From: an uncultured Bacteroidota bacterium
GTDB taxonomy: Bacteria; Bacteroidota; Bacteroidia; UKL13-3
Length of the DNA: 42,365 nucleotides
Direction of reading: 5' to 3'
Assembly (NCBI GenBank): GCA_903901345.1
Contig: CAIUQQ010000276.1
Span: 1-42,365, forward strand
Shown here: positions 318 through 34,130 of the stretch, piece after piece
How positions within the stretch are numbered: the stretch's first letter is position 1
Layout: each line of letters begins with the position of its first letter
The notes under the pieces: generated by a model
What the model saw: only the letters and a program-made list of their open reading frames with translations
What the model was told of the DNA's origin: nothing
Database searches by the model: none
Translations under genes and position numbers: made by a program

Positions 318-494
318 ATTTGTTAACAATACCTCAACCCAACGATAAAGTTAGCCAAGCACTTAGTGATTTCAGAATGGATATTGTGTTTGTTGTGTGT
401 AGTAGAAACGAATTTCAATTAAAATAAAGAACCTTTATAAAACCTCATAGCCTTCATTTTTTAAAAAATAAACAAAAAACGCTTTGGGTTGTAT

Positions 495-502
495 TATATT
501 TG
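495..502 (+). promoter_or_regulatory. Probable clpX promoter, Bacteroidota -7 box
   Basis: TATATTTG matches the Bacteroidota -7 consensus TAnnTTTG exactly. No clear -33 TTG lies at the expected distance. Transcription would begin near 508, leaving a leader of about 30 nt before the ATG at 540. The box lies inside the longer open frame that starts at 489, which argues against that upstream start. Confidence 0.45.
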
Positions 503-539
503 CAGGCTATTTATAAAAATACTTAGCTCTATAATTTTA

Positions 540-1772
540 ATGGCAAAGAAAACCGAAGATAAATGTTCATTTTGTGGACGAAACAGAAATGAAGTTCAAT
601 TTTTAATAGCTGGACTTGATGCCCTGATATGTGAAGATTGCACTAAGCAAGCAAATAGAATCATTAGTGAAGATGCAGAAGTAAAATCGTCAACTCCTTT
701 AAATAAATTAGTTTTACTAAAACCAGCTCAAATAAAAGCACATCTTGACGAATACGTAATAGGCCAGGATGAAGCCAAAAAAGTATTGAGCGTAGCAGTT
801 TATAATCACTTTAAACGCTTATTGGTTAAAAGCAAAAAGAACGATATAGAAATAGAAAAAAGCAATGTAATGCTAGTTGGTGAAACTGGAACTGGCAAAA
901 CTTTATTGGCTAAAACATTGGCTAAAGTGCTGGATGTTCCTTTCTGTATTGCTGATGCAACCGTGATTACTGAAGCTGGTTATGTAGGCGAAGACGTAGA
1001 AAGTATATTAAGCAGATTGCTGCAAGCAGCCGATTATAATGTAGAAATGGCGGAACGTGGCATTGTTTATATTGATGAAATTGATAAAATAAGCCGCAAA
1101 AGCGATAACCCAAGCATTACGCGCGATGTAAGTGGGGAAGGCGTTCAACAAGCATTATTGAAAATTTTGGAAGGAACCATTGCCAATGTGCCACCACAAG
1201 GCGGACGCAAGCATCCTGACCAAAAAATGATTCAAATAAACACCAGTAATATCTTATTTATTTGTGGTGGTGCGTTTGATGGAATTGACAGACATATAGC
1301 TAGAAGGTTACAAACTCAAGCCATAGGTTTTAAAAACGAAGAGGAAATGGGTGCTGTAAACGAAAAAAACATGTTGCAGTATATTAGTCCAGCTGATTTA
1401 AGAAGTTTTGGTTTAATACCCGAAATTATTGGTCGTTTACCAGTGTTATGTCATTTAAATCCTTTGGATAAAGAAGCTTTGCGCAATATATTAACAGAAC
1501 CCAAAAATGCGTTGACCAAGCAATACAAATATTTGTTTGATTTGGAAAAAATAGAATTACAGTTTACCGATGATGTGGTAGATTTAATTGTAGATACCGC
1601 ATTTGGATTTAAATTAGGCGCACGTGGTTTACGCAGTATTTGCGAAGCCATTATGCTTGACTTAATGTACGATGCTCCTGATTTGGCCGTTAAAGGAAAA
1701 ATTGTCATTGACTTGGCTTATGCCAAAAGCAAAATAGAAGCCCTGAAATACAAAACTTTTCAAGCGGCATAA
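540..1772 (+). CDS. clpX: ATP-dependent Clp protease ATP-binding subunit ClpX
   Basis: ClpX is a hexameric AAA+ unfoldase that feeds substrates to the ClpP peptidase in the cytosol. The 410-residue product has the N-terminal zinc-binding domain (Cys9, Cys12, Cys31, Cys34), Walker A GETGTGKT at about 114-121, pore loop GYVG at 147-150, and Walker B VYIDEID at about 176-182. It also has the RKH loop (GGRKHP) and the IGF loop (AIGF) that docks on ClpP. I chose the ATG at 540 because [13 protein letters not shown] is the normal start of the family, and the longer frame from 489 would add 17 residues that overlap the promoter. No clpP lies beside it in the window. It is followed by its own terminator at 1844-1882. 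Confidence 0.97.
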
Positions 1773-7552: not shown

Positions 7553-7709
7553 ATAATATTATCTTAAAAAAATCAAATTAACTTACTTGGCAATTCAATT
7601 GACGAAATCAAACTTTTCACAATTATTATATTAGCGAATAATACTTTTAGTAAAAATTTGATAAAGAATGGGCCATCTAACTGTAAACTTAAGTCCTGCT
7701 TTTGCAGGA

Positions 7710-7747
7710 TCGGGGTAGCAGTAACACCCTGCGTGATACGACCTCCA
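7710..7747 (-). other. tRNA-Pro 3'-half-like fragment with adjacent hairpin
   Basis: Compared with the real tRNA-Pro 3' half (7811-7843), this copy keeps TCGGGGTAGCAG (11 of 12 bases; 7710-7721) and TACGACCTCCA (11 of 11; 7737-7747), while the T-arm between them differs (15 bases instead of 10). Read on the minus strand, the replaced middle can still form GCAG-GGTGTTA-CTGC, a T-arm-like hairpin. A second hairpin, TCCTGC-TTTT-GCAGGA, directly adjoins at 7694-7709. The block lies beyond the tRNA terminator. It is not a complete tRNA. Confidence 0.5.
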
Positions 7748-7768
7748 ATTTTATTTTTTTTAAAATAA

Positions 7769-7799
7769 AAAAACTCAAGTCTTTTGAACTTGAGTTTTT
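7769..7799 (-). terminator. Terminator of the tRNA-Ser/tRNA-Pro operon
   Basis: AAAAACTCAAGT pairs with ACTTGAGTTTTT around the loop CTTTTGA. Read on the minus strand, the stem is followed by a T-rich tail (7751-7770). It starts 12 bases after the 3' end of tRNA-Pro. Confidence 0.75.
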
Positions 7800-7810
7800 G
7801 CCTGTTAAAG

Positions 7811-7884
7811 TCGGGGTGGCAGGATTCGAACCTACGACCTCCACATCCCAAATGTGGCGCGATACCAGGCTACGCTACACCCCG
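7811..7884 (-). tRNA. tRNA-Pro (anticodon TGG)
   Basis: The minus strand folds into a standard 74-nt cloverleaf. The acceptor is CGGGGTG/CACCCCG with discriminator A, the anticodon stem is CCACA/TGTGG with loop TTTGGGA (anticodon TGG), and the T-arm is GTAGG-TTCGAAT-CCTGC. CCA is not encoded. It follows tRNA-Ser in the same transcript. Confidence 0.95.
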
Positions 7885-7952
7885 TTTGCAAGTTTTTCAA
7901 AAGTGCTAAATTTTTGAACTAAGCATTACTACTCGCCCTATAAAAAAATGTG

Positions 7953-8041
7953 CGGTGAGAGAGAGATTCGAACTCTCGATACACTTTGACGCGTATGTCG
8001 GTTTAGCAAACCGGTGGTTTCAGCCGCTCACCCATCTCACC
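7953..8041 (-). tRNA. tRNA-Ser (anticodon GCT)
   Basis: The minus strand gives an 89-nt class II tRNA with acceptor GGTGAGA/TCTCACC, anticodon loop TTGCTAA (GCT), and a long variable arm (about CATACGCGTCAAAGTGTAT). The T-arm is GAGAG-TTCGAAT-CTCTC. The first pair of the anticodon stem (27-43) is a C-A mismatch; the other four pairs are good. CCA is not encoded. Confidence 0.93.
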
Positions 8042-8063
8042 AATTGCTTTTTTAAAGGGAGTG

Positions 8064-8093
8064 CAAATGTAGCAATCTCAAGCAAACAACAAA
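8064..8093 (-). promoter_or_regulatory. Promoter of the tRNA-Ser/tRNA-Pro operon
   Basis: On the minus strand TTTG (8090-8093), an 18-nt spacer and TACATTTG (8064-8071) match the Bacteroidota promoter consensus exactly. The box lies 22 bases upstream of the tRNA-Ser 5' end. It is one of the best promoter matches in the window. Confidence 0.7.
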
Positions 8094-8275
8094 ACTTTTC
8101 TTTCATTTTTACAAAATATTTTTTTAAAAGTATTTATATGATATAGTTAATAAATAAAAAGCCTTTGAATACTAGTAAGTTATATTAAAAATTGTGTAAA
8201 ATTAATATTTAATAGTTTTTCAATAATAATATGCAGTAAAATTGTTCGTTAATTAACAAAAAATAAACTTTAGTC

Positions 8276-10879
8276 ATGGCAAAAGATAAAGTAGTAAATT
8301 ACAAGTATCGCGACTTAAAAATATTTGGTAGTACTGAATGGTTAGCGAATAACGAAAAAAAATATAGACAAGTTTATGATCTTTCTGAATGCACTTTTAT
8401 TTATTGTGAACTTTCGTTTTTCAATAAATTATTTGATGAAAAAGAATGGGATGTAAAAATAAGTTTAAAGTGTGTAAAGCAAGACGATAGCACTGAAATT
8501 TGTACGCTTACTGCTGATAGAACTATAAAAAAAGACGAAAACATTGTTTATATAAGAGAAGGTTGGGGCGTAAAAAGCACTGGTACTTTTTGGAAAAAAG
8601 GAAGTTATCGTTGGGAAGCTTGGGTAGATGGCGTGTTTATAGCAGAAAAGGCATTTTATATTTTAGACATTGGTGTAGTTACAGAAACCGAAAATCCTTA
8701 TTTTAACATAAAAACTAACAAACTTTACGAAGGAACTGAAACCAATATTCCAAAAACGGAACGTAATTATTTAAGTGCTTTTGACACCAAAGAAACAAGG
8801 TATGTTTGGCTTGAAATGGTTGCGGAAAACTTAGTAAAAGGCGAAGAAAAATGGCCTTGTGAATTAATATTTAACTTTAAAACTCGTTCGGGTCAGTTAA
8901 AAGGTTCAGTTGAAAAAATATTTTTTGTGGATCCAATTGAACCAGAATTTGAATGTAGCATTGGCTGGGGAAATGATTTAAAAGGAACTTGGGGTTCAGA
9001 TTATTATACCATTGAGGTTATTTTTATGGACCAATTGGTAGCAAGCATTTTGTTTGATGTAGGAAACGAGTTTTTGATTGAACAAAAAGTTAAGGAAATA
9101 AAAGCTAAAACTAAACAGACCACTAAGGTAATTGAAGCTGAACCAGCTCCCGAGAATATTGAAAATATTATGCAGGAGCTTGATAATTTGATTGGGCTTG
9201 ACTCTATAAAAAAGAAAATTAAAGAATACACCACTTATTTAAATTTTTTAAAAATAAGGAAAGAAAAAGGCTTTGATGACTCTGAGAAAATAAACTTACA
9301 TGCAGTTTTTACCGGTAACCCAGGAACAGGAAAAACTACTGTTGCCAAAATGCTTGGAAAAATTTATTTGCAGCTTGGTTTGTTAAGTAAAGGACATGTA
9401 ATAGAAGCTGATAGAAGTGATTTGGTAGCAGAATATATTGGTCAAACGGCACCAAAAACCAAGGAAATTATAAAGCGTGCAAAAGGTGGAATTTTATTCA
9501 TAGATGAAGCTTATGCTTTGGCACGAAAAAACGATGACAGCAAGGATTTTGGTAAAGAAGCCATTGAAATTTTACTGAAAGAAATGAGTGATGGTGATGG
9601 CGATATAGCAATTATTGCCGCAGGCTATCCCGATGAAATGAATAACTTTTTAGAAAGCAATCCTGGAATGAAAAGTAGGTTCCAAATGTTTTACGATTTC
9701 CCGGATTATTTGCCTAAAGAATTACTTTTAATTGCCGAATATTCAACTCAAAAAAGAGGTATCAAATTCAATGAATTTTCAAAGGAATTGATGTTCAAAA
9801 AACTAATTGACGGATATAGAGACAGGGACAGAATGTTTGGAAATGCACGTTATGTAAATAACTTAATTGATGAATGTAAAATGAACATGGGCTTGCGCTT
9901 AATGCAATCGCCAAACCCAAGCGAATTGAGTAACGATATATTAAGTACAATAGAAACAGTAGACATTGAAAAAGTATTCGGCATTAAACATAAATCAATT
10001 ACTGACATTCCAATTGACGAAGAATTATTGTCATCATCGCTAAAAGTTTTACATAGTTTAATAGGATTAGAAAAGGTAAAAAATGAAATAGACGAATTGG
10101 TAAAATTAGTTCGTTTTTACAGAGAAATAGGCAAAGATGTTCGTCAATCGTTTTCATTACATACTGTTTTTACTGGAAATCCGGGAACAGGTAAAACCAC
10201 AGTGGCACGTATTCTAGCACAAATTTATAAAGCGCTTGGAATTTTAGAAAGAGGTAATTTGGTAGAATGTGATAGACAAGATTTAGTTGGCGGATATGTA
10301 GGGCAAACTGCGTTAAAAACCAACGCAGTTTTGAATAAAGCAATGGGTGGCGTTTTGTTTATTGACGAAGCATATGCATTAAGTGAAGGTGGTGAAAATG
10401 ATTTTGGCAAAGAAGCAGTGGAAACTATTTTGAAAAAAATGGAAGATGCAAGGGGCGATATTATTGTAATTGTAGCCGGATATACCGATAACATGAAAAA
10501 GTTTTTGGAAAGTAATCCAGGGCTAAAAAGCAGGTTTGACAGAGAAATGCAGTTTGAAGATTATGATGCTTTGCAATTACATGAAATAGCTTTAAAAATG
10601 CTTGACAATAATGCAATTAAACCAACCGAAGAAGCATCAAATCACTTAAAAGCATACAGTGAATCGATGTATAAAACCAGGAATAAATATTTTGGAAATG
10701 CACGAAGCATTAGAAAAGTGGTAGAAGAAGCAATTAAAAATCAACACTTGCGGTTAGCAAAAATTCCTGCAGCTGAACGAACATCAGAAATGATTTTTGA
10801 ATTGGTTTTAGATGATGTTTTAGAATTTAAAATTGACATAAGTATTCCTGAAGCAAGAAAATCGATAGGATTTAATTAG
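8276..10879 (+). CDS. Tandem CbbX/SpoVK-type AAA+ ATPase with duplicated N-terminal domain
   Basis: The 867-residue cytosolic protein has two AAA+ modules of the CbbX/SpoVK/EccA type. Module 1 has Walker A GNPGTGKT at 347-354, Walker B ILFIDEAYAL around 406-415 and sensor-2 motif FGNARYV near 521. Module 2 has Walker A at 634-641, Walker B VLFIDEAYAL around 693-702 and FGNARSI near 804. Both keep the acidic Walker B pair, so both should hydrolyse ATP. Residues 1-280 look like two related beta-rich repeats of about 120 residues. Each has a Trp/Tyr-rich core, an FD/YDLSE or FDTKE turn, a GWG...GTW/GTF motif, and a final strand ending in DIG or DVG. CbbX-like proteins remodel partner proteins; the target here is unknown. 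It is monocistronic, closed by a hairpin at 10888-10914. Confidence 0.85.
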   Translation: MAKDKVVNYKYRDLKIFGSTEWLANNEKKYRQVYDLSECTFIYCELSFFNKLFDEKEWDVKISLKCVKQDDSTEICTLTADRTIKKDENIVYIREGWGVKSTGTFWKKGSYRWEAWVDGVFIAEKAFYILDIGVVTETENPYFNIKTNKLYEGTETNIPKTERNYLSAFDTKETRYVWLEMVAENLVKGEEKWPCELIFNFKTRSGQLKGSVEKIFFVDPIEPEFECSIGWGNDLKGTWGSDYYTIEVIFMDQLVASILFDVGNEFLIEQKVKEIKAKTKQTTKVIEAEPAPENIENIMQELDNLIGLDSIKKKIKEYTTYLNFLKIRKEKGFDDSEKINLHAVFTGNPGTGKTTVAKMLGKIYLQLGLLSKGHVIEADRSDLVAEYIGQTAPKTKEIIKRAKGGILFIDEAYALARKNDDSKDFGKEAIEILLKEMSDGDGDIAIIAAGYPDEMNNFLESNPGMKSRFQMFYDFPDYLPKELLLIAEYSTQKRGIKFNEFSKELMFKKLIDGYRDRDRMFGNARYVNNLIDECKMNMGLRLMQSPNPSELSNDILSTIETVDIEKVFGIKHKSITDIPIDEELLSSSLKVLHSLIGLEKVKNEIDELVKLVRFYREIGKDVRQSFSLHTVFTGNPGTGKTTVARILAQIYKALGILERGNLVECDRQDLVGGYVGQTALKTNAVLNKAMGGVLFIDEAYALSEGGENDFGKEAVETILKKMEDARGDIIVIVAGYTDNMKKFLESNPGLKSRFDREMQFEDYDALQLHEIALKMLDNNAIKPTEEASNHLKAYSESMYKTRNKYFGNARSIRKVVEEAIKNQHLRLAKIPAAERTSEMIFELVLDDVLEFKIDISIPEARKSIGFN

Positions 10880-10887
10880 TACAAACC

Positions 10888-10914
10888 GATGCCTTCATTC
10901 CACATGAAGGCATC
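10888..10914 (+). terminator. Terminator after the AAA+ gene
   Basis: GATGCCTTCAT pairs with ATGAAGGCATC (11 bp) around TCCAC, 9 bases after the stop codon. The tail AGTTCTATTTC is only moderately T-rich. Confidence 0.55.
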
Positions 10915-11022: not shown

Positions 11023-12918
11023 ATGAGTGATTCAATCAAACACGAGTGCGGAATAGCCCTTATTCGCCTGCTTAAACCAATGAGTTTTTACCAAGAAAAA
11101 TATGGCTCAGCTCTTTACGGATTAAAGCGTCTTTATCTTTTAATGGAAAAACAGCAAAACCGTGGCCAAGATGGAGCGGGAGTTGGAACCATAAAAATTA
11201 ACGTAAAACCAGGCGAAAATTACTTAAACCGCCAACGAGCAAATGGCAGTAACGCCATTGCTGAAATATTTGAAAAAGTAAACAAAAAAATTACTAAAGC
11301 TGGAACAAAAGAACAGTTAAACGATACTGATTATTTGCGTTCACACGTTCCTTTTATGGGCGAATTATTGTTAGGCCATTTGCGTTACGGAACCCATGGT
11401 GGAAACAGCGTAGATTTATGCCATCCATTTATCCGTGAAAACAATTGGATGAGCCGTAATTTAATGCTTGCTGGTAATTTTAATTTAACCAATGTAGATG
11501 AACTTTTTGATGTGTTAGTTGGCCTTGGGCAGCACCCAAGCGAAAGAGCAGATACTGTTACCATGTTGGAAAAATTTGGACATTTTATTGATGAAGAAAA
11601 CCAACGTTTATTTACCCGTTATAAAATAGAAGGACACAGCAATCAACATATTTCAAATATGATAGCTGAAGAATTAAACGTTGAAAATATTTTGAAACGT
11701 TCACTTCGCGATGCCGATGGAGGTTATGTTATGGCTGGTTTAATTGGTCATGGCGATGCTTTTGTGGTAAGGGATCCAAACGGAATTCGTCCATGTTTTT
11801 ATTATTGTGACGATGAAATAGCTGTGGTAACAAGTGAACGTCCTGCTATACAAACTGGGTTCAATATTCCAGTAAGAGATATCAAAGAATTAGGGCGTGG
11901 AAATGCATTAATTATTAAACGTAACGGAACTATTAGCGAAGTAAATATAATTCCTCCAGGTGAAAACAAAAGCTGTTCATTTGAACGCATTTATTTTAGC
12001 CGTGGAAACGATAAAGACATTTACAAAGAACGAAAGGAATTGGGTTATTTACTAGCAAATAAAATTATGAATGCAGTAAATAATGATTTTGAAAATACTG
12101 TATTTAGTTTTATTCCAAATACTGCTGCTGTTTCGTTTTACGGAATGATAGACGGAATCAATGATTTATTGAATATTCATAAAATTGAACAAATAAAGAA
12201 AATTGGTTCTGAAATAAATGAAGCGCAACTTAAAACCATTTTAGCAGTTCACCCTCGCAGAGAAAGAGTGGCTGTAAAAGATGCAAAACTGCGCACTTTT
12301 ATTACCAACGATAATAACCGCGAAGACATGGTGGCTCACGTTTACGATGTTACATACGGAATAGTAAAAAACCATGAAGACACGCTTGTAGTCATTGACG
12401 ATTCAATTGTTCGTGGTACAACTTTAAAAACATCTATTCTTAGAATTTTAGATAGACTACATCCTAAAAAAATAATTATTGTTTCGTCTGCTCCGCAAAT
12501 TCGTTATCCTGATTGTTACGGAATAGACATGAGTAAATTGAAGGATTTTGTTGCCTTTCAGGCAATGATAGCGCTAATTAAAGAACGTAAATTAGACAAT
12601 AAAATTGACGAAGTTTACAAAAAATGTAAAGCGCAAGAACATTTACCAAAAGAAGAAATGAAAAACTATTTGATAGAACTATATTCATTGTTTACTGATG
12701 AAGAAATTTCTGCTCAAATATCTATCATAGTTACTCCGCCCGAAATTACAGCAAATGTTCAAGTAATTTATCAAACAATAGAAAACCTGCATATTGCTTG
12801 TCCAAACCATCATGGCGATTGGTATTTTAGTGGAAACTACCCAACTCCAGGAGGGAATAAAGTAGTAAATAAAGCATTTATGAATTATTACGAAGGCAGC
12901 GATGCCAGAGCTTATTAA
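11023..12918 (+). CDS. purF: Amidophosphoribosyltransferase, long Bacteroidota form (PurF-like)
   Basis: PurF makes 5-phosphoribosylamine from PRPP and glutamine, the first step of purine synthesis. Cys9 in KHECGIAL matches the catalytic N-terminal Cys exposed after removal of a short propeptide, as in Bacillus PurF (EECGV). The glutaminase domain has NRGQDGAG and HLRYGTHGGN. The PRPP loop VIDDSIVRGTT lies at about 457-467. The protein has 631 residues against roughly 470-500 in classical PurF; most of the excess is inserted in and around the phosphoribosyltransferase domain. Two cysteines similar to Bacillus Fe-S ligands are present (KSCSFERIYF and PDCYGID), while the C-terminal pair is not obvious. 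It could be a paralogue with an altered role, but all catalytic motifs are kept. It ends at the shared terminator 12921-12974. Confidence 0.85.
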   Translation: MSDSIKHECGIALIRLLKPMSFYQEKYGSALYGLKRLYLLMEKQQNRGQDGAGVGTIKINVKPGENYLNRQRANGSNAIAEIFEKVNKKITKAGTKEQLNDTDYLRSHVPFMGELLLGHLRYGTHGGNSVDLCHPFIRENNWMSRNLMLAGNFNLTNVDELFDVLVGLGQHPSERADTVTMLEKFGHFIDEENQRLFTRYKIEGHSNQHISNMIAEELNVENILKRSLRDADGGYVMAGLIGHGDAFVVRDPNGIRPCFYYCDDEIAVVTSERPAIQTGFNIPVRDIKELGRGNALIIKRNGTISEVNIIPPGENKSCSFERIYFSRGNDKDIYKERKELGYLLANKIMNAVNNDFENTVFSFIPNTAAVSFYGMIDGINDLLNIHKIEQIKKIGSEINEAQLKTILAVHPRRERVAVKDAKLRTFITNDNNREDMVAHVYDVTYGIVKNHEDTLVVIDDSIVRGTTLKTSILRILDRLHPKKIIIVSSAPQIRYPDCYGIDMSKLKDFVAFQAMIALIKERKLDNKIDEVYKKCKAQEHLPKEEMKNYLIELYSLFTDEEISAQISIIVTPPEITANVQVIYQTIENLHIACPNHHGDWYFSGNYPTPGGNKVVNKAFMNYYEGSDARAY

Positions 12919-25370: not shown

Positions 25371-28300
25371 TTATTGTTTAACCAATGATTTAACAATCAT
25401 ATCGTCACCAATTTGAACTTTAACAATATAAGTACCCGCAGCAGTAAAATTATTTGAAGCTAATTCAAATTCATGTTTTCCGCTAGCTACATTATTATGA
25501 TTTGTAGTAGAAATTACTCTTCCTAATATATCTGTAATAGTGATTGTAATGTCTTCAGTTTTAGTTAAACTCAAACCTACAACAGTGTTATTAGCAAAAG
25601 GATTAGGATAAGCAGATAAGTTAAACTTACTAGCTAACTCTTTACCAGCACTAACACTTACATTTACAATAACTGAATCTTGGTAATTTACTACACAACC
25701 TTCAGCAGTTGTTACTTGCATTCTAACATAAAAAGTACCTGCTTTGTTGTAAGTAAAATCCATAATACGTTGATTAGAAGTGGTGCTATCAGCATCACCA
25801 TGATTCCATAAATATTGGTTCATGTCAGATGATAAATCAGAAGGTGTTAATACTTTACGGTTATTCACTGTAAACTTACCTGGTATTGGGAATGATTGTT
25901 TAGTGAAAGTAATGATAGGTTTAGCAACAACTGTAATTGTACCCGATTTTGTATCGATACAACCATCAGAAGTAGCAGAAATACTCCAGTTGTAAACACC
26001 AGCATCAGGATAAACATTAGATGAATTACATGCACCACTACTTGGACCATTACCAAATACCCATGCACAAATAATACCTGAACCACTTGAAGCAAAAGAT
26101 TTACTAGTAAATGTTACAACATTACCTTGACAAACTTTATCAGTTGTAACACCTGTTTTAATTGTACCACTTAATTCAGCAACAGCAACTGGAGCTGTTT
26201 TAACTTCTACATTTTTAGTTACCGAATCTTTACAACCAAATAACTTATTATAAGCAACTAACTTAACAATAAATGGATCACCACTGTTATTGTTTAAATA
26301 ACGATGTTTAGGATCTTGACGTAAATCTTCACCACTGTTATCACCTAAATCCCAAATATAACCTGCATTTTGAATACCAGCACCAAAAGTACTTTGGTTA
26401 TTAAACGTTGTTGAGTCATTGGTACAAGCACTAGTGAATAAGAAATCAGGACGTGGCGTTTCATATACTGTTACTAATCTTGATGTAGTATCTTGACAGC
26501 CAGCAGCAGAAATTAAACGTAAACTAACAGTTACATTACCACTATTTGCAAATTTAATTTGGAATGCATTTGATTGACGAGTCTCTCCAGTACTAAATGT
26601 CCAATACCAACCTAATCTATCACCATTTGAAATAGTTGAACTATCAGCATAAGGCATGTATTGACCTTGACAATGGCTAGTTACATAAAATTTAGCTTTA
26701 GGTTTAGCATATGAAGGGAAAATTTTGTTATTAATAGCAAAACAACCATTTGAACTACTTGTAACTCTTAAATTTACATTATAGTTTGTATCAGCTTTAG
26801 TAAAACCAAAAGTTGTAACAGGAGTAGTTCTAGAAATATTACCTGGGAAAGTCCATAAATAATTTAATCCAGCTGCTTGATTTGTTACTGTAAAATAAGT
26901 TGAATCATTTTGACAAACAATAGCAGTAGAACTAGCAGTATAAGCTGCATTTGGAGCTTGTAATACTGTAATTAATTTAGAAACAGTATCAGATAATCCT
27001 AATGCTGAAGTAGCACGTAAAGTTACTCTGTAAGAACCTGCAGTATTCCAAATATGGTTTGGATTTCCAAAAGTAGAAGTTGTATTGTCACCAAAAGTCC
27101 ATAACCAAGTTACGCCACCTTGTGGTCCTTGATTAATTATGAAATTCAAACCGGTACCAGTACAAGCTGTATCAGTTCTTGGTCCTGTAATAAAACCATA
27201 AGCAACAGGGTTATTTACTTTAATATAACGATATACAGTTGTATCACAGTTAGTAGGTAAGAAACGAATAGTTGTTTTTAAAACAAATAAAGTATCACCT
27301 TCAGCAATTGTTGGTGTAAATGAAACTTTAGCATTTGTTGTAGCAGTAGGAGCTGTTATTACTACGTTAGTAGCAGGAGTATTTCCATAAACTGTTCTAA
27401 CTGAAGTGTTTAATAAAGTCCAATTTGTACCGTAACTAGCATTTGTATAATAACTAGTTGGTGTTAATATTTCATATTTTAAACTATTATTATATTTAAC
27501 AGCATCTGGTTTATTTAAATCACCATCATTAGCAGCACCATCAAATGCACCTGGAGCTAAATCAGGAATAATATAACCACCAGCAGCCACAATTGGACGT
27601 GTAAAACGGTTAATTACAGTTGTAAAACTACCAGGTAAATTATTACTACAATAGTTAGGTTGTACTGAAGATGAAGGAGCTTGGTAAGTTCCAGAACCAT
27701 AATTAATAGCCGAAATAACATAATTTAAAGTATCAACTTGACGATTTCTAAATCTTAAAGTTAAAGAACCCATATTACCAGTAGCTGAATCCAAAGTTCC
27801 AACTCCATTACCAGAAGCATCTAATTCAATGGCTCTGTATACATAACGGTAATCAGTATTAGGTACAGTAATAGTTACAGGTTGGTTTAAATTACAAATT
27901 GATGCAATTACACCAGTAGGCACTTGACTTTGATTATCATCAATAATTTGAATACTATCAATTAATATATTGTTACCTAAACCAGCACTAAATGCATCAA
28001 ATTGGAAACTGTAGTTGTATCCTGGAGTTCTGTATTCAGTTAAACAAGCTTCATAAGTAAACCAATCTGGATAAGCAGAAAGTGAATTAGGTCTAACTGC
28101 AACTTTAATTACAGGACCTTGGAAACCGTTGATTAAAACTGTAACATTTACTGAATCTCTTTTTGTAACATTATTATTACTTTGAGAAAAACGGAAACGT
28201 AAAATTGGTCTTTGTAAAACACTTAAATTAAAACAAGGAGAAATTAATCTAGCTGAAGCACCAGCTGCTAAAGTAGCAGCAGGGAATACCGCACATTTAA

Positions 28301-31300
28301 TACCATTTTCTACTGGTTGAGAAGGATTAATAGACGAACCGAAAGCAGCTGTATTCCAATTTGCAGCTAGTGTTAATGATTGAGTTGACCAACCTTTTAA
28401 ACCATCTTCAAAATTCATAGTGTAAGGATAAGTAGCAATACCAGTAGATAAAGTATCCCAAGCTTTTACAGCAGGATTTGGATAAAGTCCATTATTACCA
28501 GCAATATCAGAAGCAGTAATTTTATACTCAATAATTCCACCTGAAGCAAAAGCAGTAGAAGGGAAACTATAAGTTCTAACTAAAAAGCCATTACTGTTAG
28601 TGCTAGATGAGGTAGAAGAACTTGGTAAATTAATTTGTGAACCACCATTAACTCTATATGTTAAAAAATCACCAGTGTAATTTTTATCTACTACTATAAA
28701 ACTAATTGTAGGGAAAGTAGCATTTAAACAAACAACAGTATTTGCAGGAATAACACGAGGCAAAACACTATCAATATTATTACCACCAGTATATTCGTGA
28801 GCACCCATAGTTGGACTCAATCCATTTCTAGTTGTAGAAATAACATCGGTAGTTACACCAACTACAGGAGTACCAGCACCATAAATTACTGAATTTGTTA
28901 AATCAGGAATAAATAAATTTAAATCACTAGTAAAAGGAATTGTAAAATTAGTACTATATAAATCACCACCAGTGAATTTGTTAATATTATCCCAACCATT
29001 AAATAAGTTTTCAGTACCAATTGCATTAGTTGTTAATTGATTATTAGTAGCATTAGTAGCATTACATAAGTAATTGTTATTTTCAGATAAAGAAAAAGCA
29101 CTTAATAAACTACTTACTTGAACAGCACTTGCTTTAACACCATTTAAAATTGAAGTACCACCTAATTTATTAGAGAATAAATTATTTGACATTTTAAATC
29201 CTGATTTCAATAATAATGAAGTAGCATTTAAAGCAAACTTATCAGCAATAGCTAAACAAGCTGTTCTACCAGCAGTAACCGTATTTGCAGTTCCTAAATT
29301 TATAGAATTATAATAAATTCCAATATTAGGATCAGAGTAAGGATTTGTTGGAGCTGCATCGATTGCAATTCCATAAACACCACTCATTAAAGTAGCAGAA
29401 CCTGTAGATGAAATTCCAGAAATCATGTTGTTGGTTATTCTAGTACTATTAGTAACATTACCAGCATCAGTTCCAAAATTCATATAAATACCATAAGCAG
29501 CACTTCCACTTACTGTTGAATTTATATTTTTAATAATATTACCATCAATAATGTTAGCAGAATCTAAAATAGTATTTAAACCAGCAATGGTTCCTAATTC
29601 AATACCTCTAGGGTTTGAAAAAGTAATCATATTGTTTTGAATTTTATTTTGTTTAATGTTTGCTCTGTATTGACCAACACAAAAAATTGCAGCAGCATTA
29701 TTAATACCACCATAATAATTTGTTGCAACAGTTCCTCCTGGAGCATTATTACCACCAATAACATTGTTTAAAACTGAAGTAGTAACATCACCTTGGCCTC
29801 TTACACCGTTTCCTCTTAAATAAAGTCCATATTGACATCCACCAATAAAGTTATTTGAGAATGAATTATTGTTATTTCCACCTAAGCCAGCACCATTTGA
29901 AGGAGTAGCAGTAATACCACCCATATAAATAGCCGCAAAAGTATTAATAGCAGTTGTTGTAGAATTTCCAATTAAATTACAATTGTTTACAAAGTTATTT
30001 GAAGTAGAAAGACTAGTAGCAAAAATTGAGCTTTGACCACCTAAAATATCAATTATTTTATAAGTAGGTGAAGTCATATTGCTAGGCATTACAATTGTTA
30101 AATCTCTAGAAGAAGTTCCATTATTAGAACCATCAAAACCAAAGTAACTAGAGCTTGTAAATCTAATTAAACTCGAATTTGCTGCAGGAGCAGTTATAAC
30201 GTTTGTGAATTTAATTGTATCTTGACGACCAGCAGCAACCGTTACAAAAACTGGAACAGTAGAAGTAGCAGAAGGATAATCAAAAACGGTAATTGGCGTA
30301 ACAAAAGTATCTGTTTCACCAACATAACCACTACTTAAAGCTAAACGAACTGGATTAGAACCAGAGAATGCTAAACCAACACCAAATGCATTTAAGTAAT
30401 TAACTGCAGAACGCAATGTTTTAAATGAACCAGTGCTTGCACTCGCTAACACAGGATAATTATCTACACCATTAATTTGATAAGTAGCATTGGGTTGTAA
30501 AGGTGTATTTATTAAATTTAATTTTACAGCACCCATTTGAGGTCCTAAAGATCTTGTAGCACCATAAATATCAACAAGTACTAATGAAACAGAAGCACCT
30601 GCAGTATATCTAGAACCAGCAGTTACAGCATTTAAATCAGGTAATGTATCAGATTTAAATGCAGTTGGGAAATTAAATGAACTTAAATCAGCAGTAGTTC
30701 CTGTGAACTGGCGTAAAGTATTTATGTTCATTCTAGTTGGAACTGTTGTTGATGGAGTTGCCATCAATATATTATTAGTAGCAGTAGGATTTGTTCCAGA
30801 AACAAAATATGAATTGAAATCTGATGCTGGAATAGATAATACTGGATTTAAAGCAAATGGATTAGTTGGCGAAATTGAAATTACAGAATACATTGTACCT
30901 GCTGTGTTTCTATTTGCTGTTACACCAAATATATTATTTACACTTGAAATACCTCCTCTAATTGAAGACCCCATAAATAATGCTGAGATAGAACTATTTG
31001 CTGCTAAAATATTATTACCACTCATGTTTATAGTATTATTAGACAAGGTAACTAAATTAGCAGACGTATAAATATTAACAGTAGAGGCATCAATTAAAAT
31101 ACCTGTTGGATTTAATAAACTTGCTGGCGAACCAGCACTTGAACCAACAGAAAGAATATTTGAAATGAAATTATTTGCAAAGAAATAACTTCTAGCTCCA
31201 GTAGGTGCAGTAAAATAAGTTCTTATTCCAATTACACTTTGACCACCAACAGTAACTAAATTATAAATAAAGTTTTTAGTAACTGTTACATCAAAATTTG

Positions 31301-34130
31301 GATATTTAGGAGAAACTTCAGCAACTTCAATTCCTCTAAAACCTGAAGATATCGAAGTAGTTGGTAAAGTATTTCTAACAATATTTGAATCTATTAAAGT
31401 AGCTTCAACACCTTGAACATAAATACCTGCTTGATTAGCCGCACCACCAATAAATGTAGTTGGTAAACTACCATTTGGAGCTGTAGAGCCACCAATAATA
31501 TTACCAACCATTTTTAAATTAGCAATTCTAAATGATGGAATTCCAGAAGCTGTTCCTAAAAAATCAGGTGCAGATCCTGCAGGATTTGCAGCTGAACCTA
31601 ATACTACAATACCACTTCTTACACCTTGAATTAAATTATTATAGATGTTGATATTGCTGTTAGCAATTGTTCTTATAGTATCATTTCCAGCAGGAATAGT
31701 ATTAGTTATAGGGAAACCATAATAAATACCTGCATGTGTATTAACAGCTGTTGTAGAAGTATTACCTAAAATGTTTATATTTTTGATAGTAATATTCTGA
31801 CAAGGTACATCTGTAGGAACGATACCAATAACACGTGTATTATTTGTTACTGATTGACCTCTAAACATAAATGTTAAGTTTCTTACATTAGGACCAGTAC
31901 TAGTTAAACCATCAACTATTACATTTTTTGCACCCATAAATCTTAAAATAGATGTGTTAGCCATGTTTTGAGTATTTGGAGCCCAAATAGTATCAATAAC
32001 TCCAACATTTGGTTTAATTACTACATTTAACGAAGGATCTGAGCCTGGGTAATCTAAGATTGCTGGAATCCAACCTGTTTCTCTAGCATAACCAGCAGAA
32101 ATACGAAGTGTTACATTGTTTTGATTTCCTGAAATACCATAAGAATTTAAATGGGTAATGGCTTCAGCTAAATCTTTAAAACTACCTGTATTAGGAGTAG
32201 ACGCTACTGGAGGACTAGAAAAACCGTCAATATTATAAGTAACACCACCACGTAAAGCAGTAGGAATATCTATTGAATCTCCTAACCATTGGTGACAACC
32301 TATTGAAGTAAATCTACCTAATCCTGTTCTAGAATTTCCAAAAATATCATCACTTATTTTATTTCTTAATGCATTAAAAACTGCAACATTAAATTGATTT
32401 AAAGTTGTTAAAGCATAACCTCTATTATAAGTTCTATGAGAAAAACCACTTGCTACTGACCATAAGGTATCGCTAGTATTTGGAGGATTAACTGCAAAAC
32501 TATTTGTATCTGAAGGGCAAAAAGAAACATAGCTTTTTATAGTAGAAACATTAGTTAAAACGTTGTTTCTGTTTAAACCAGCTACAAATGTATATCCACC
32601 ACCAAATGTGTTAGCAAAATAATTATTAAAATTTGAAAAAGCAAAAGGATTAACATTACTTGCTGCTACTATTATAGCATAGTTTTGGTAACCCGCTAAA
32701 TTACCAAATGTAGTAACACCATCACCTATTGTTCTGCTTAATTTATTTACAAATGAATTATTCATCATAGTTATACCACCTGTAGTTGTACTACTAGTTA
32801 CCAAACAAGCTGAAATTGAATTTGAAGCAATTGTATCTCCAGTTAAATTAATTGAATTAAACAATACTTCTAAACCAACATTTGCAGTTGCAACATCTAT
32901 TAATATACCTGCAGTATATGTTCCCATACTTCCAAAAGCATTTGCACCATTTAAAGTTGCTATTTTAGCAATTGAATTATTTGCAATTAATATATTTCTA
33001 GGTGCAGTGGGAACTCCTAAACTTACTCTAATTCCAGAAACACCTTGACTTACTGCATTTGAAAAAATACCATAAATTTGATTTTTTACAATTCTAATAT
33101 TTGAATCTAACGCAATAGCACCTGTTCCATCTAATCTTATTCCCGAAAAATTACCATTTACCGAAGCTACACTTAATGGTAAAGCATTTCTAATAATATT
33201 ACCAGAAACTGTAGAGTTGGAAACTGTATTTAAATAAATACCTGCAAGATTTGAAGTAGTACCACCTATGCAAGCTGAATTTGACGCATTAATTGGGTTA
33301 CTATAATTACCTATTATATTATTAATAATGTTTACTCCTGTATCTTGTGAAGGAAACAAAGTAGTACTTGAAGCAAGTCCTCTATGTGAAATACCATTTT
33401 GAACTGCCATAATTAAATTATTTACATAACTAATATTATAGTTTGTTCCTACTAAAGCTGGAGCAGTGTTTGAAGCTGTACCACCAAAATAAACACCTGC
33501 GTATGTATTAATAGTAGTTCCAACAGAATTACCAACGATAATACAATTTTTTATTCCAACATTTCTTAATCTGTTTGCAGCAGCAGGAATAAAGTCAATA
33601 ACTTTAGCAGTTGGAGCATTTGAAGTTGCCATGTTAAACGTTATATTTCTTTGTCCTACAGTTCCACTTCCATCTATAGTAAAATCTGTACTTCCTAAAA
33701 CTCTAAATAAACTACCATTTGCAGCAATAGTTGCAGAAGTAGAAATTACAAAGTTTAAACCTGCAGCAGGTTTTAACACAATTGGTCTCGTTGAACTCAT
33801 GTTAGGATAACCTGCACCAGTTCCTTGCCCAACTTGAATAGGTGAAGGTTCAACTCCAGAATATCCAGAAGATAATAATATAGTAACAATACCCGGTGCT
33901 AAAGTAACATCAATACCATTAGTATTTAAATACGTAATGGCACCAGCATTTCCAGTACCTGAAAGGTTAACAAATGTATCTACGGGTGCAACTAAATCTG
34001 CTTGTCCGTTTACAACATAAGTTTTACCTCCTGCAAAACCTTGGGCAAAAGCACTACTTGCTGTTAGCCCAATAAATACAACTAAGAATAAACTTAGTTT
34101 AGCGTAAAAATTAGTAAATTTTGATTTCAT
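25371..34130 (-). CDS. Giant secreted beta-helix/PKD protein with T9SS type A sorting domain
   Basis: The 2919-residue product has a signal peptide (ending SSAFAQ, about residue 30). Then come three tandem modules of roughly 580 residues. Each opens with a Y-x-[VI]-N/D-G start, a GSFK-like linker, an LN-x-[YF]-G-[IV] helix and an LSSGY-like motif, then continues as right-handed parallel beta-helix repeats rich in NN, ISN and GI (about 36-625, 629-1210, 1215-1785). Next are a jelly-roll-like region (about 1895-2070, FEDGLKGWST) and several PKD-type domains (about 2310-2830; WTFGDN, WDLGDNSGED, WNHGDADSTT). The C-terminal sorting domain (about 2838-2919) begins LSAYPNPFANNT and ends IVKSLVKQ. 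It should be exported by Sec, then T9SS, and anchored or released at the surface. A role as adhesin or matrix protein is inferred. No catalytic site is visible. Confidence 0.9.
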   Translation of the reverse strand: MKSKFTNFYAKLSLFLVVFIGLTASSAFAQGFAGGKTYVVNGQADLVAPVDTFVNLSGTGNAGAITYLNTNGIDVTLAPGIVTILLSSGYSGVEPSPIQVGQGTGAGYPNMSSTRPIVLKPAAGLNFVISTSATIAANGSLFRVLGSTDFTIDGSGTVGQRNITFNMATSNAPTAKVIDFIPAAANRLRNVGIKNCIIVGNSVGTTINTYAGVYFGGTASNTAPALVGTNYNISYVNNLIMAVQNGISHRGLASSTTLFPSQDTGVNIINNIIGNYSNPINASNSACIGGTTSNLAGIYLNTVSNSTVSGNIIRNALPLSVASVNGNFSGIRLDGTGAIALDSNIRIVKNQIYGIFSNAVSQGVSGIRVSLGVPTAPRNILIANNSIAKIATLNGANAFGSMGTYTAGILIDVATANVGLEVLFNSINLTGDTIASNSISACLVTSSTTTGGITMMNNSFVNKLSRTIGDGVTTFGNLAGYQNYAIIVAASNVNPFAFSNFNNYFANTFGGGYTFVAGLNRNNVLTNVSTIKSYVSFCPSDTNSFAVNPPNTSDTLWSVASGFSHRTYNRGYALTTLNQFNVAVFNALRNKISDDIFGNSRTGLGRFTSIGCHQWLGDSIDIPTALRGGVTYNIDGFSSPPVASTPNTGSFKDLAEAITHLNSYGISGNQNNVTLRISAGYARETGWIPAILDYPGSDPSLNVVIKPNVGVIDTIWAPNTQNMANTSILRFMGAKNVIVDGLTSTGPNVRNLTFMFRGQSVTNNTRVIGIVPTDVPCQNITIKNINILGNTSTTAVNTHAGIYYGFPITNTIPAGNDTIRTIANSNINIYNNLIQGVRSGIVVLGSAANPAGSAPDFLGTASGIPSFRIANLKMVGNIIGGSTAPNGSLPTTFIGGAANQAGIYVQGVEATLIDSNIVRNTLPTTSISSGFRGIEVAEVSPKYPNFDVTVTKNFIYNLVTVGGQSVIGIRTYFTAPTGARSYFFANNFISNILSVGSSAGSPASLLNPTGILIDASTVNIYTSANLVTLSNNTINMSGNNILAANSSISALFMGSSIRGGISSVNNIFGVTANRNTAGTMYSVISISPTNPFALNPVLSIPASDFNSYFVSGTNPTATNNILMATPSTTVPTRMNINTLRQFTGTTADLSSFNFPTAFKSDTLPDLNAVTAGSRYTAGASVSLVLVDIYGATRSLGPQMGAVKLNLINTPLQPNATYQINGVDNYPVLASASTGSFKTLRSAVNYLNAFGVGLAFSGSNPVRLALSSGYVGETDTFVTPITVFDYPSATSTVPVFVTVAAGRQDTIKFTNVITAPAANSSLIRFTSSSYFGFDGSNNGTSSRDLTIVMPSNMTSPTYKIIDILGGQSSIFATSLSTSNNFVNNCNLIGNSTTTAINTFAAIYMGGITATPSNGAGLGGNNNNSFSNNFIGGCQYGLYLRGNGVRGQGDVTTSVLNNVIGGNNAPGGTVATNYYGGINNAAAIFCVGQYRANIKQNKIQNNMITFSNPRGIELGTIAGLNTILDSANIIDGNIIKNINSTVSGSAAYGIYMNFGTDAGNVTNSTRITNNMISGISSTGSATLMSGVYGIAIDAAPTNPYSDPNIGIYYNSINLGTANTVTAGRTACLAIADKFALNATSLLLKSGFKMSNNLFSNKLGGTSILNGVKASAVQVSSLLSAFSLSENNNYLCNATNATNNQLTTNAIGTENLFNGWDNINKFTGGDLYSTNFTIPFTSDLNLFIPDLTNSVIYGAGTPVVGVTTDVISTTRNGLSPTMGAHEYTGGNNIDSVLPRVIPANTVVCLNATFPTISFIVVDKNYTGDFLTYRVNGGSQINLPSSSTSSSTNSNGFLVRTYSFPSTAFASGGIIEYKITASDIAGNNGLYPNPAVKAWDTLSTGIATYPYTMNFEDGLKGWSTQSLTLAANWNTAAFGSSINPSQPVENGIKCAVFPAATLAAGASARLISPCFNLSVLQRPILRFRFSQSNNNVTKRDSVNVTVLINGFQGPVIKVAVRPNSLSAYPDWFTYEACLTEYRTPGYNYSFQFDAFSAGLGNNILIDSIQIIDDNQSQVPTGVIASICNLNQPVTITVPNTDYRYVYRAIELDASGNGVGTLDSATGNMGSLTLRFRNRQVDTLNYVISAINYGSGTYQAPSSSVQPNYCSNNLPGSFTTVINRFTRPIVAAGGYIIPDLAPGAFDGAANDGDLNKPDAVKYNNSLKYEILTPTSYYTNASYGTNWTLLNTSVRTVYGNTPATNVVITAPTATTNAKVSFTPTIAEGDTLFVLKTTIRFLPTNCDTTVYRYIKVNNPVAYGFITGPRTDTACTGTGLNFIINQGPQGGVTWLWTFGDNTTSTFGNPNHIWNTAGSYRVTLRATSALGLSDTVSKLITVLQAPNAAYTASSTAIVCQNDSTYFTVTNQAAGLNYLWTFPGNISRTTPVTTFGFTKADTNYNVNLRVTSSSNGCFAINNKIFPSYAKPKAKFYVTSHCQGQYMPYADSSTISNGDRLGWYWTFSTGETRQSNAFQIKFANSGNVTVSLRLISAAGCQDTTSRLVTVYETPRPDFLFTSACTNDSTTFNNQSTFGAGIQNAGYIWDLGDNSGEDLRQDPKHRYLNNNSGDPFIVKLVAYNKLFGCKDSVTKNVEVKTAPVAVAELSGTIKTGVTTDKVCQGNVVTFTSKSFASSGSGIICAWVFGNGPSSGACNSSNVYPDAGVYNWSISATSDGCIDTKSGTITVVAKPIITFTKQSFPIPGKFTVNNRKVLTPSDLSSDMNQYLWNHGDADSTTSNQRIMDFTYNKAGTFYVRMQVTTAEGCVVNYQDSVIVNVSVSAGKELASKFNLSAYPNPFANNTVVGLSLTKTEDITITITDILGRVISTTNHNNVASGKHEFELASNNFTAAGTYIVKVQIGDDMIVKSLVKQ

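Follow-up and report, generated by a model that had tools for sequence, protein, structure and literature searches.

The window, the whole stretch of 42,365 nucleotides of DNA from an uncultured Bacteroidota bacterium that we analysed, encodes a tandem AAA+ protein whose open reading frame begins with an ATG codon (Table 1). Pfam recognizes two AAA modules and two AAA_lid_6 lids in its 867 residues, and no domain within residues 1-285. The first-pass annotation had described the protein as two duplicated halves made of two beta-rich repeats and two CbbX-type motors; both repeats and both motors are there, but the domain order is b1-b2-D1-D2 (bb-AA), that is, two domain pairs and not two halves. 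It knew of no described function for this layout, and we likewise found none in the open literature that we searched. The AlphaFold model of the full-length protein has an overall pTM of 0.39, and we trust it for single domains only.

The surroundings of the gene contain several other features. Short open reading frames at 7573-8146 overlap the genes for tRNA-Pro (7810-7884, minus strand) and tRNA-Ser (7952-8041, minus strand), and are therefore unlikely to be genes. On the plus strand, positions 11023-12918 encode a 631-aa protein with weak similarity to PurF (118 bits against a cut-off of 350), which is far longer than the usual PurF. The minus strand at 25371-34130 encodes a 2919-aa protein that contains PKD domains and carries a sorting tail for type IX secretion.

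Table 1. Features of the tandem AAA+ gene and of the clpX gene used for comparison (positions in the window).
Feature	Position	Strand	Basis or remark
Whole gene, tandem AAA+ protein, 867 aa	8276..10879	+	ORF list; Pfam; universal in order
Ig-like domain b1, residues 8-136	8297..8683	+	AlphaFold; HHalign to b2
Ig-like domain b2, residues 137-270	8684..9085	+	AlphaFold; HHalign to b1
Linker, residues 271-292, predicted disordered	9086..9151	+	pLDDT < 50
AAA+ module D1 with lid, residues 299-566	9170..9973	+	CbbX match E 1e-59; motifs
D1 Walker A, residues 347-354	9314-9337	+	motif GNPGTGKT
AAA+ module D2 with lid, residues 591-850	10046..10825	+	CbbX match E 2e-56; motifs
D2 Walker A, residues 634-641	10175-10198	+	motif GNPGTGKT
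C-terminal tail, residues 851-867, sequence variable; 858-867 predicted disordered	10826..10876	+	
Ile-Gly-Phe, residues 864-866, conserved [ILM]GF, putative ClpP-docking motif	10865..10873	+	
Terminator-like hairpin directly 3' of gene	10888..10914	+	consensus scan only
clpX, comparison gene	489..1772	+	ClpP-docking loop IGF at 1323-1331

The gene is present in single copy in 60 of the 64 genomes of the order to which the window belongs, and in 44 of the 45 near-complete ones; one genome has it divided between two contig ends. Outside the order, the gene is thinly spread in the phylum: any match to the N-terminal profile was found in 25 of 395 genomes, mostly in other architectures. Ignavibacteria, Saprospiraceae and one genome labelled Aminicenantes contain close homologues. 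In the last of these, the gene's next neighbour, on the same strand, codes for a DUF4062-NACHT-TPR protein of 1190 aa (L076:10706-14278), and this neighbour, together with weak PADLOC matches to IetA and TRIP13, would suit an ATPase of anti-phage defence. The PADLOC matches are confined to the AAA+ part, the gene belongs to the core of its order, and we could not find any mobile or viral copies in IMG/VR or in phage and plasmid collections, all of which makes a defence role very improbable.

No neighbouring gene is conserved within the order, which points to a client encoded elsewhere, as the first-pass annotation had proposed when it called the gene isolated. The Ignavibacteria gene comes after a phosphate-uptake cluster (phoU) and an M61 peptidase, whereas three other loci (L075, L122, L128) have a common neighbourhood with ferredoxin and IscX. 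These surroundings differ and none is conserved in the order, so the gene neighbourhood was rejected as a source of the client.

The N-terminal part of the protein consists of a pair of predicted Ig-like domains. A single-sequence BLAST of b1 against b2 gave nothing significant (E > 1). The profiles of residues 8-136 and 137-270 were aligned end to end by HHalign over 121-127 columns, with a probability of ~98% and E-values of 2e-12 to 1e-13, and AlphaFold on 38 sequences predicted two Ig-like sandwiches with the same eight-strand order twice (pLDDT 90.5). From the profiles and the predicted structure, b1 and b2 are co-linear homologues, two copies of one fold. The first-pass annotation had read this segment as two copies of one beta-rich domain and had suggested aligning them, with unrelated folds as the contrary outcome; the alignment and the model agree on two copies, and unrelated folds were not what we obtained. 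The copies of the domain have in common an Arg/Lys-x-Tyr, a Glu and an Asn further along, and the GWG..G.W motif already noted in the first-pass annotation. It has no significant Pfam or NCBIfam model and nothing convincing among PDB sequences. Fold searches returned general Ig-like matches (RbmA, transglutaminase barrels, the Wzt carbohydrate-binding domain and the AlkC Ig-like domain), and the Ig-like fold is too common for these matches to indicate a function.

In the window's own genome, exactly two copies of this domain were found, both in the 867-aa protein, and none in any other protein. A wider profile search detected one copy in TPR-3xCbbX proteins of ~1300 aa, two in a 661-aa protein and one in a 153-aa protein. 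It also detected two in a 278-aa protein without an AAA+ module (L112:5526-6362 and L113:5475-6311), the kind of occurrence that the first-pass annotation had proposed to look for. Read by eye, the start of this 278-aa protein resembles a signal peptide, and from this the domain looks to have a use outside the cytoplasm as well. The Ig-like domain is a common element of several tandem-CbbX architectures, to which model-based annotation may give the name SpoVK or CbbX. As the N-terminal domains of the clade are thought to recruit clients (PMC10659427), it is plausible by analogy that the Ig-like pair recognises the substrate.

Both AAA+ modules are intact, as previously noted from the sequence: Walker A lies exactly at residues 347-354 and 634-641, and Walker B (LFIDEAY), sensor 1 (AGY), the finger region (NPGxKSRF) and sensor 2 (FGNAR) are complete in D1 and D2. 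These motifs are near-invariant among 32 relatives. The two modules are 45% identical to each other, and each matches the solved CbbX (Table 1). A GY at sensor 1 is listed as a feature of the SpoVK-CbbX-EccA clade of classical AAA (PMC10659427), and AGY is found in D1 and D2 alike in 32 of 32 relatives. NPGxxSRF is equally universal (32/32) and has the Asn typical of the clade four positions ahead of the first arginine finger, and the Arg of sensor 2 (FGN[AG]R), the second arginine finger, is present in both modules of all 32. The first finger position itself is mostly occupied by Lys (Arg in five D1 and eight D2 modules, another residue in five D2 modules, n = 32), and the Arg two residues beyond it is invariant (n = 32). 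Aromatic pore loops ([YF][IV]GQT) accompany two intact motors in nearly every member; the D2 loop is without its aromatic residue (HIGST, HIGET) in three of the 32 relatives. A fold search with the full-length model ranked CbbX first, followed by two-ring unfoldases such as Drg1, Rix7, p97 and ClpA. The NCBIfam cut-offs for SpoVK and CbbX are exceeded by whole-protein scores that sum the two modules, and such a score does not amount to identity.

In a maximum-likelihood tree of 66 modules, the modules of the two-ring proteins cluster with their counterparts in the three-ring family, D1 with D1 and D2 with D2 (support of the D2 branch 100/99), which makes the D1/D2 duplication older than the split between the two families; the single CbbX row sits on a long branch beside the D1 modules, and its placement is unsure. 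One group of three-ring relatives adjoins groESL (L117, L129) or lies one gene away from it (L120). Later AAA+ modules are degenerate in L117 and L129, and the latter has two modules only. A natural single-ring form of 598 aa (L123:7862-9658) has kept the Ig-like pair, D2 and the IGF tail and has lost D1.

CbbX-like modules, along with an rbcL gene in the window's assembly, could suggest a Rubisco activase of the CbbX type. This rbcL, form-I-like, shares a 3.4-kb plastid-like contig (C142, L133:1-3429; 3429 bases, 23-35% GC) with an rps4-like gene and a ClpC-like end. Judged by eye from its gene content, the contig is apparently algal plastid DNA that was binned into the assembly, and it would mislead anyone inferring carbon fixation. 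No match to Rubisco was found in any of the 39 other genomes searched, which include 23 members of the family, 22 of them with the AAA+ gene. With the sole rbcL of the assembly on a contaminating contig and no relative possessing Rubisco, we rejected Rubisco as the client and consider an activase function extremely improbable. The link to CbbX and Rubisco drawn in the first-pass annotation therefore does not transfer to the client, and the link that it drew to EccA and type VII secretion comes down to a shared motor clade.

All 63 full-length members (850-900 aa) carry an [I/L/M]-G-F near the C-terminus, followed by 0-9 residues, a feature that the first-pass annotation had overlooked. The motif is found in 38 of 38 representatives below 85% identity, against 2.4% expected from shuffled tails, a figure to be taken as a guide and not as a probability since the members are related. 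Across the alignment of 32 proteins, G865 and F866 do not change, and the dozen columns that precede the motif are variable and gapped; the residue before GF is mostly I, with Met in two of the 32. Residues 858-867 are predicted to be disordered (pLDDT < 50). None of the 27 other proteins of the same AAA+ clade in the phylum that have a readable C-terminus, mostly from one three-ring sister family, contains [ILM]GF in its last 14 residues, and no IGF tail was found in that sister family. It is kept in Aminicenantes and Ignavibacteria, and in the L123 protein that is devoid of D1. On the alignment and the predicted disorder, this tail has the look of a short linear motif.

Clp ATPases are known to dock on the hydrophobic pockets of ClpP via flexible loops that contain (L/I/V)-G-(F/L) (PMC8745299; PMC9035409). 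The [ILM]GF of the tail matches this tripeptide and, like it, lies on a segment predicted to be flexible. The Met variant falls outside the quoted consensus, yet it is present in ClpX of related genomes, whose docking loops read IGF, LGF or MGF. The window's own ClpX, encoded 6.5 kb upstream, has QAIGFKNE in this loop. With up to nine residues allowed after the Phe, the tail is a poorer fit for a ligand of carboxylate clamps (PDZ, HbYX). The known motifs for docking on ClpP are located in internal loops and not in C-terminal tails, and to our knowledge a C-terminal IGF has no precedent. We found no paper in the open literature that connects docking on ClpP to relatives of CbbX or SpoVK.

We propose, with a probability of roughly 50%, that the protein is a tandem-ring unfoldase of the SpoVK/CbbX/EccA clade and an alternative ATPase partner of ClpP, a partnership suggested by its sequence motifs. 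The flexibly tethered Ig-like pair would capture a client or an adaptor. By analogy with relatives, D1 and D2 would form two stacked hexameric rings, and these would use ATP hydrolysis to draw the client through the pore; threading is expected from the relatives, and the motor residues and pore loops are present in the sequence. The tails, predicted to be disordered and present on each D2 subunit, would insert their [I/L/M]-G-F into hydrophobic pockets on ClpP, in the same way as ClpX does with its IGF loops, and the unfolded chain would then be degraded by ClpP. The fuller description, which we give nearly even odds, would be a ClpP-dependent protease with a SpoVK/CbbX-clade motor, C-terminal IGF docking in the manner of proteasomal ATPases and substrate selection by tandem Ig-like domains. 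Its motor would be a classical AAA, not one of the ClpX or Clp/Hsp100 lineages, and its Ig-like domain an undescribed one.

ClpP is present in 19 of 21 family genomes and in 17 of 17 other genomes searched, and it is so widespread that its presence lends the partnership weak support. We could not detect clpP in the window's own assembly or in that of G002; the relatives have it, so that an assembly gap is the simplest, and a likely, reason for its absence from the window's assembly. In four genomes of the family (G005, G017, G019, G023), the usual clpP is accompanied by another ClpP-like gene (E ~1e-68). The AAA+ gene is not a neighbour of clpP, which, like the loss of the aromatic residue from some D2 pore loops, speaks against the proposal. 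The three-ring relatives found beside or near groESL in one group count in favour of an unfoldase, and the described members of the SpoVK/CbbX/EccA clade, which are chaperones without peptidase partners (PMC10659427), count against a partnership with ClpP.

These described members are the model for the main rival to a ClpP-docking unfoldase, a dedicated non-proteolytic chaperone like SpoVK and CbbX. Here the Ig-like pair would recruit one client, the double ring would remodel and release it, and the tail would bind a partner other than ClpP or the ring itself. Every characterised relative works in this way, with varied N-terminal domains (PMC10659427); the motors are closest to CbbX, and a conserved single-copy core gene is also consistent with such a chaperone. 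An invariant [ILM]GF that is specific to the family and closes a disordered tail would not be expected of such a chaperone, and the tail is hard to explain in these terms, but another partner could bind it. We regard a chaperone of this type as possible, at odds appreciably below even. A characterised client of the family would have overturned the first-pass reading, and none was found in the open papers searched.

In the current view, only a few Clp ATPases serve bacterial ClpP, and the SpoVK/CbbX/EccA clade works without peptidases. The conservation of a ClpP-type docking motif in a core protein of this clade calls both ideas into question, and a change of three residues in the motif provides a handle for testing them. 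With its ClpX-like tripeptide, the protein may represent a novel machine for protein destruction and not the helper of Rubisco that the resemblance of its motor suggests.

Among known systems, CbbX (the red-type Rubisco activase; PDB 3syk, 3zuh; TIGR02880) aligns with the full length of each of the two modules, lid, finger region and pore loop included, at ~41% identity. It differs in having one module and neither Ig-like pair nor tail, and Rubisco is absent from the holders of the gene studied here. SpoVK (the spore MurG chaperone; TIGR02881) is of the same AAA+ clade (PMC10659427), and its NCBIfam cut-off is exceeded by a score that two modules inflate. It has a single module with a short N-terminal domain and is restricted to sporulating Firmicutes (PMC10659427), whereas our protein combines two modules in a tandem ring with an Ig-like pair, both missing from SpoVK. 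EccA (the type VII secretion ATPase; TIGR03922; PDB 9lur) also belongs to the clade and is matched by the modules with E-values of 6e-46 and 3e-48. It has one module and a TPR N-terminal part, which the Ig-like pair replaces here, and the protein scores 429.5 bits against an NCBIfam equivalog cut-off of 466.65. ClpX and ClpA/ClpC likewise have an [ILV]G[FL] tripeptide for docking within a flexible segment, and ClpA and ClpC are also two-ring motors; they are of another AAA+ lineage and carry the motif in an internal loop, not in a C-terminal tail. The TPR-b-3xCbbX proteins of other Bacteroidota (L115-L120), for which we found no name, have one copy of the beta domain and the D1-D2 order in common by descent, and they differ by the TPRs in front, a third module and the lack of an IGF tail, with some of them encoded beside or near groESL.
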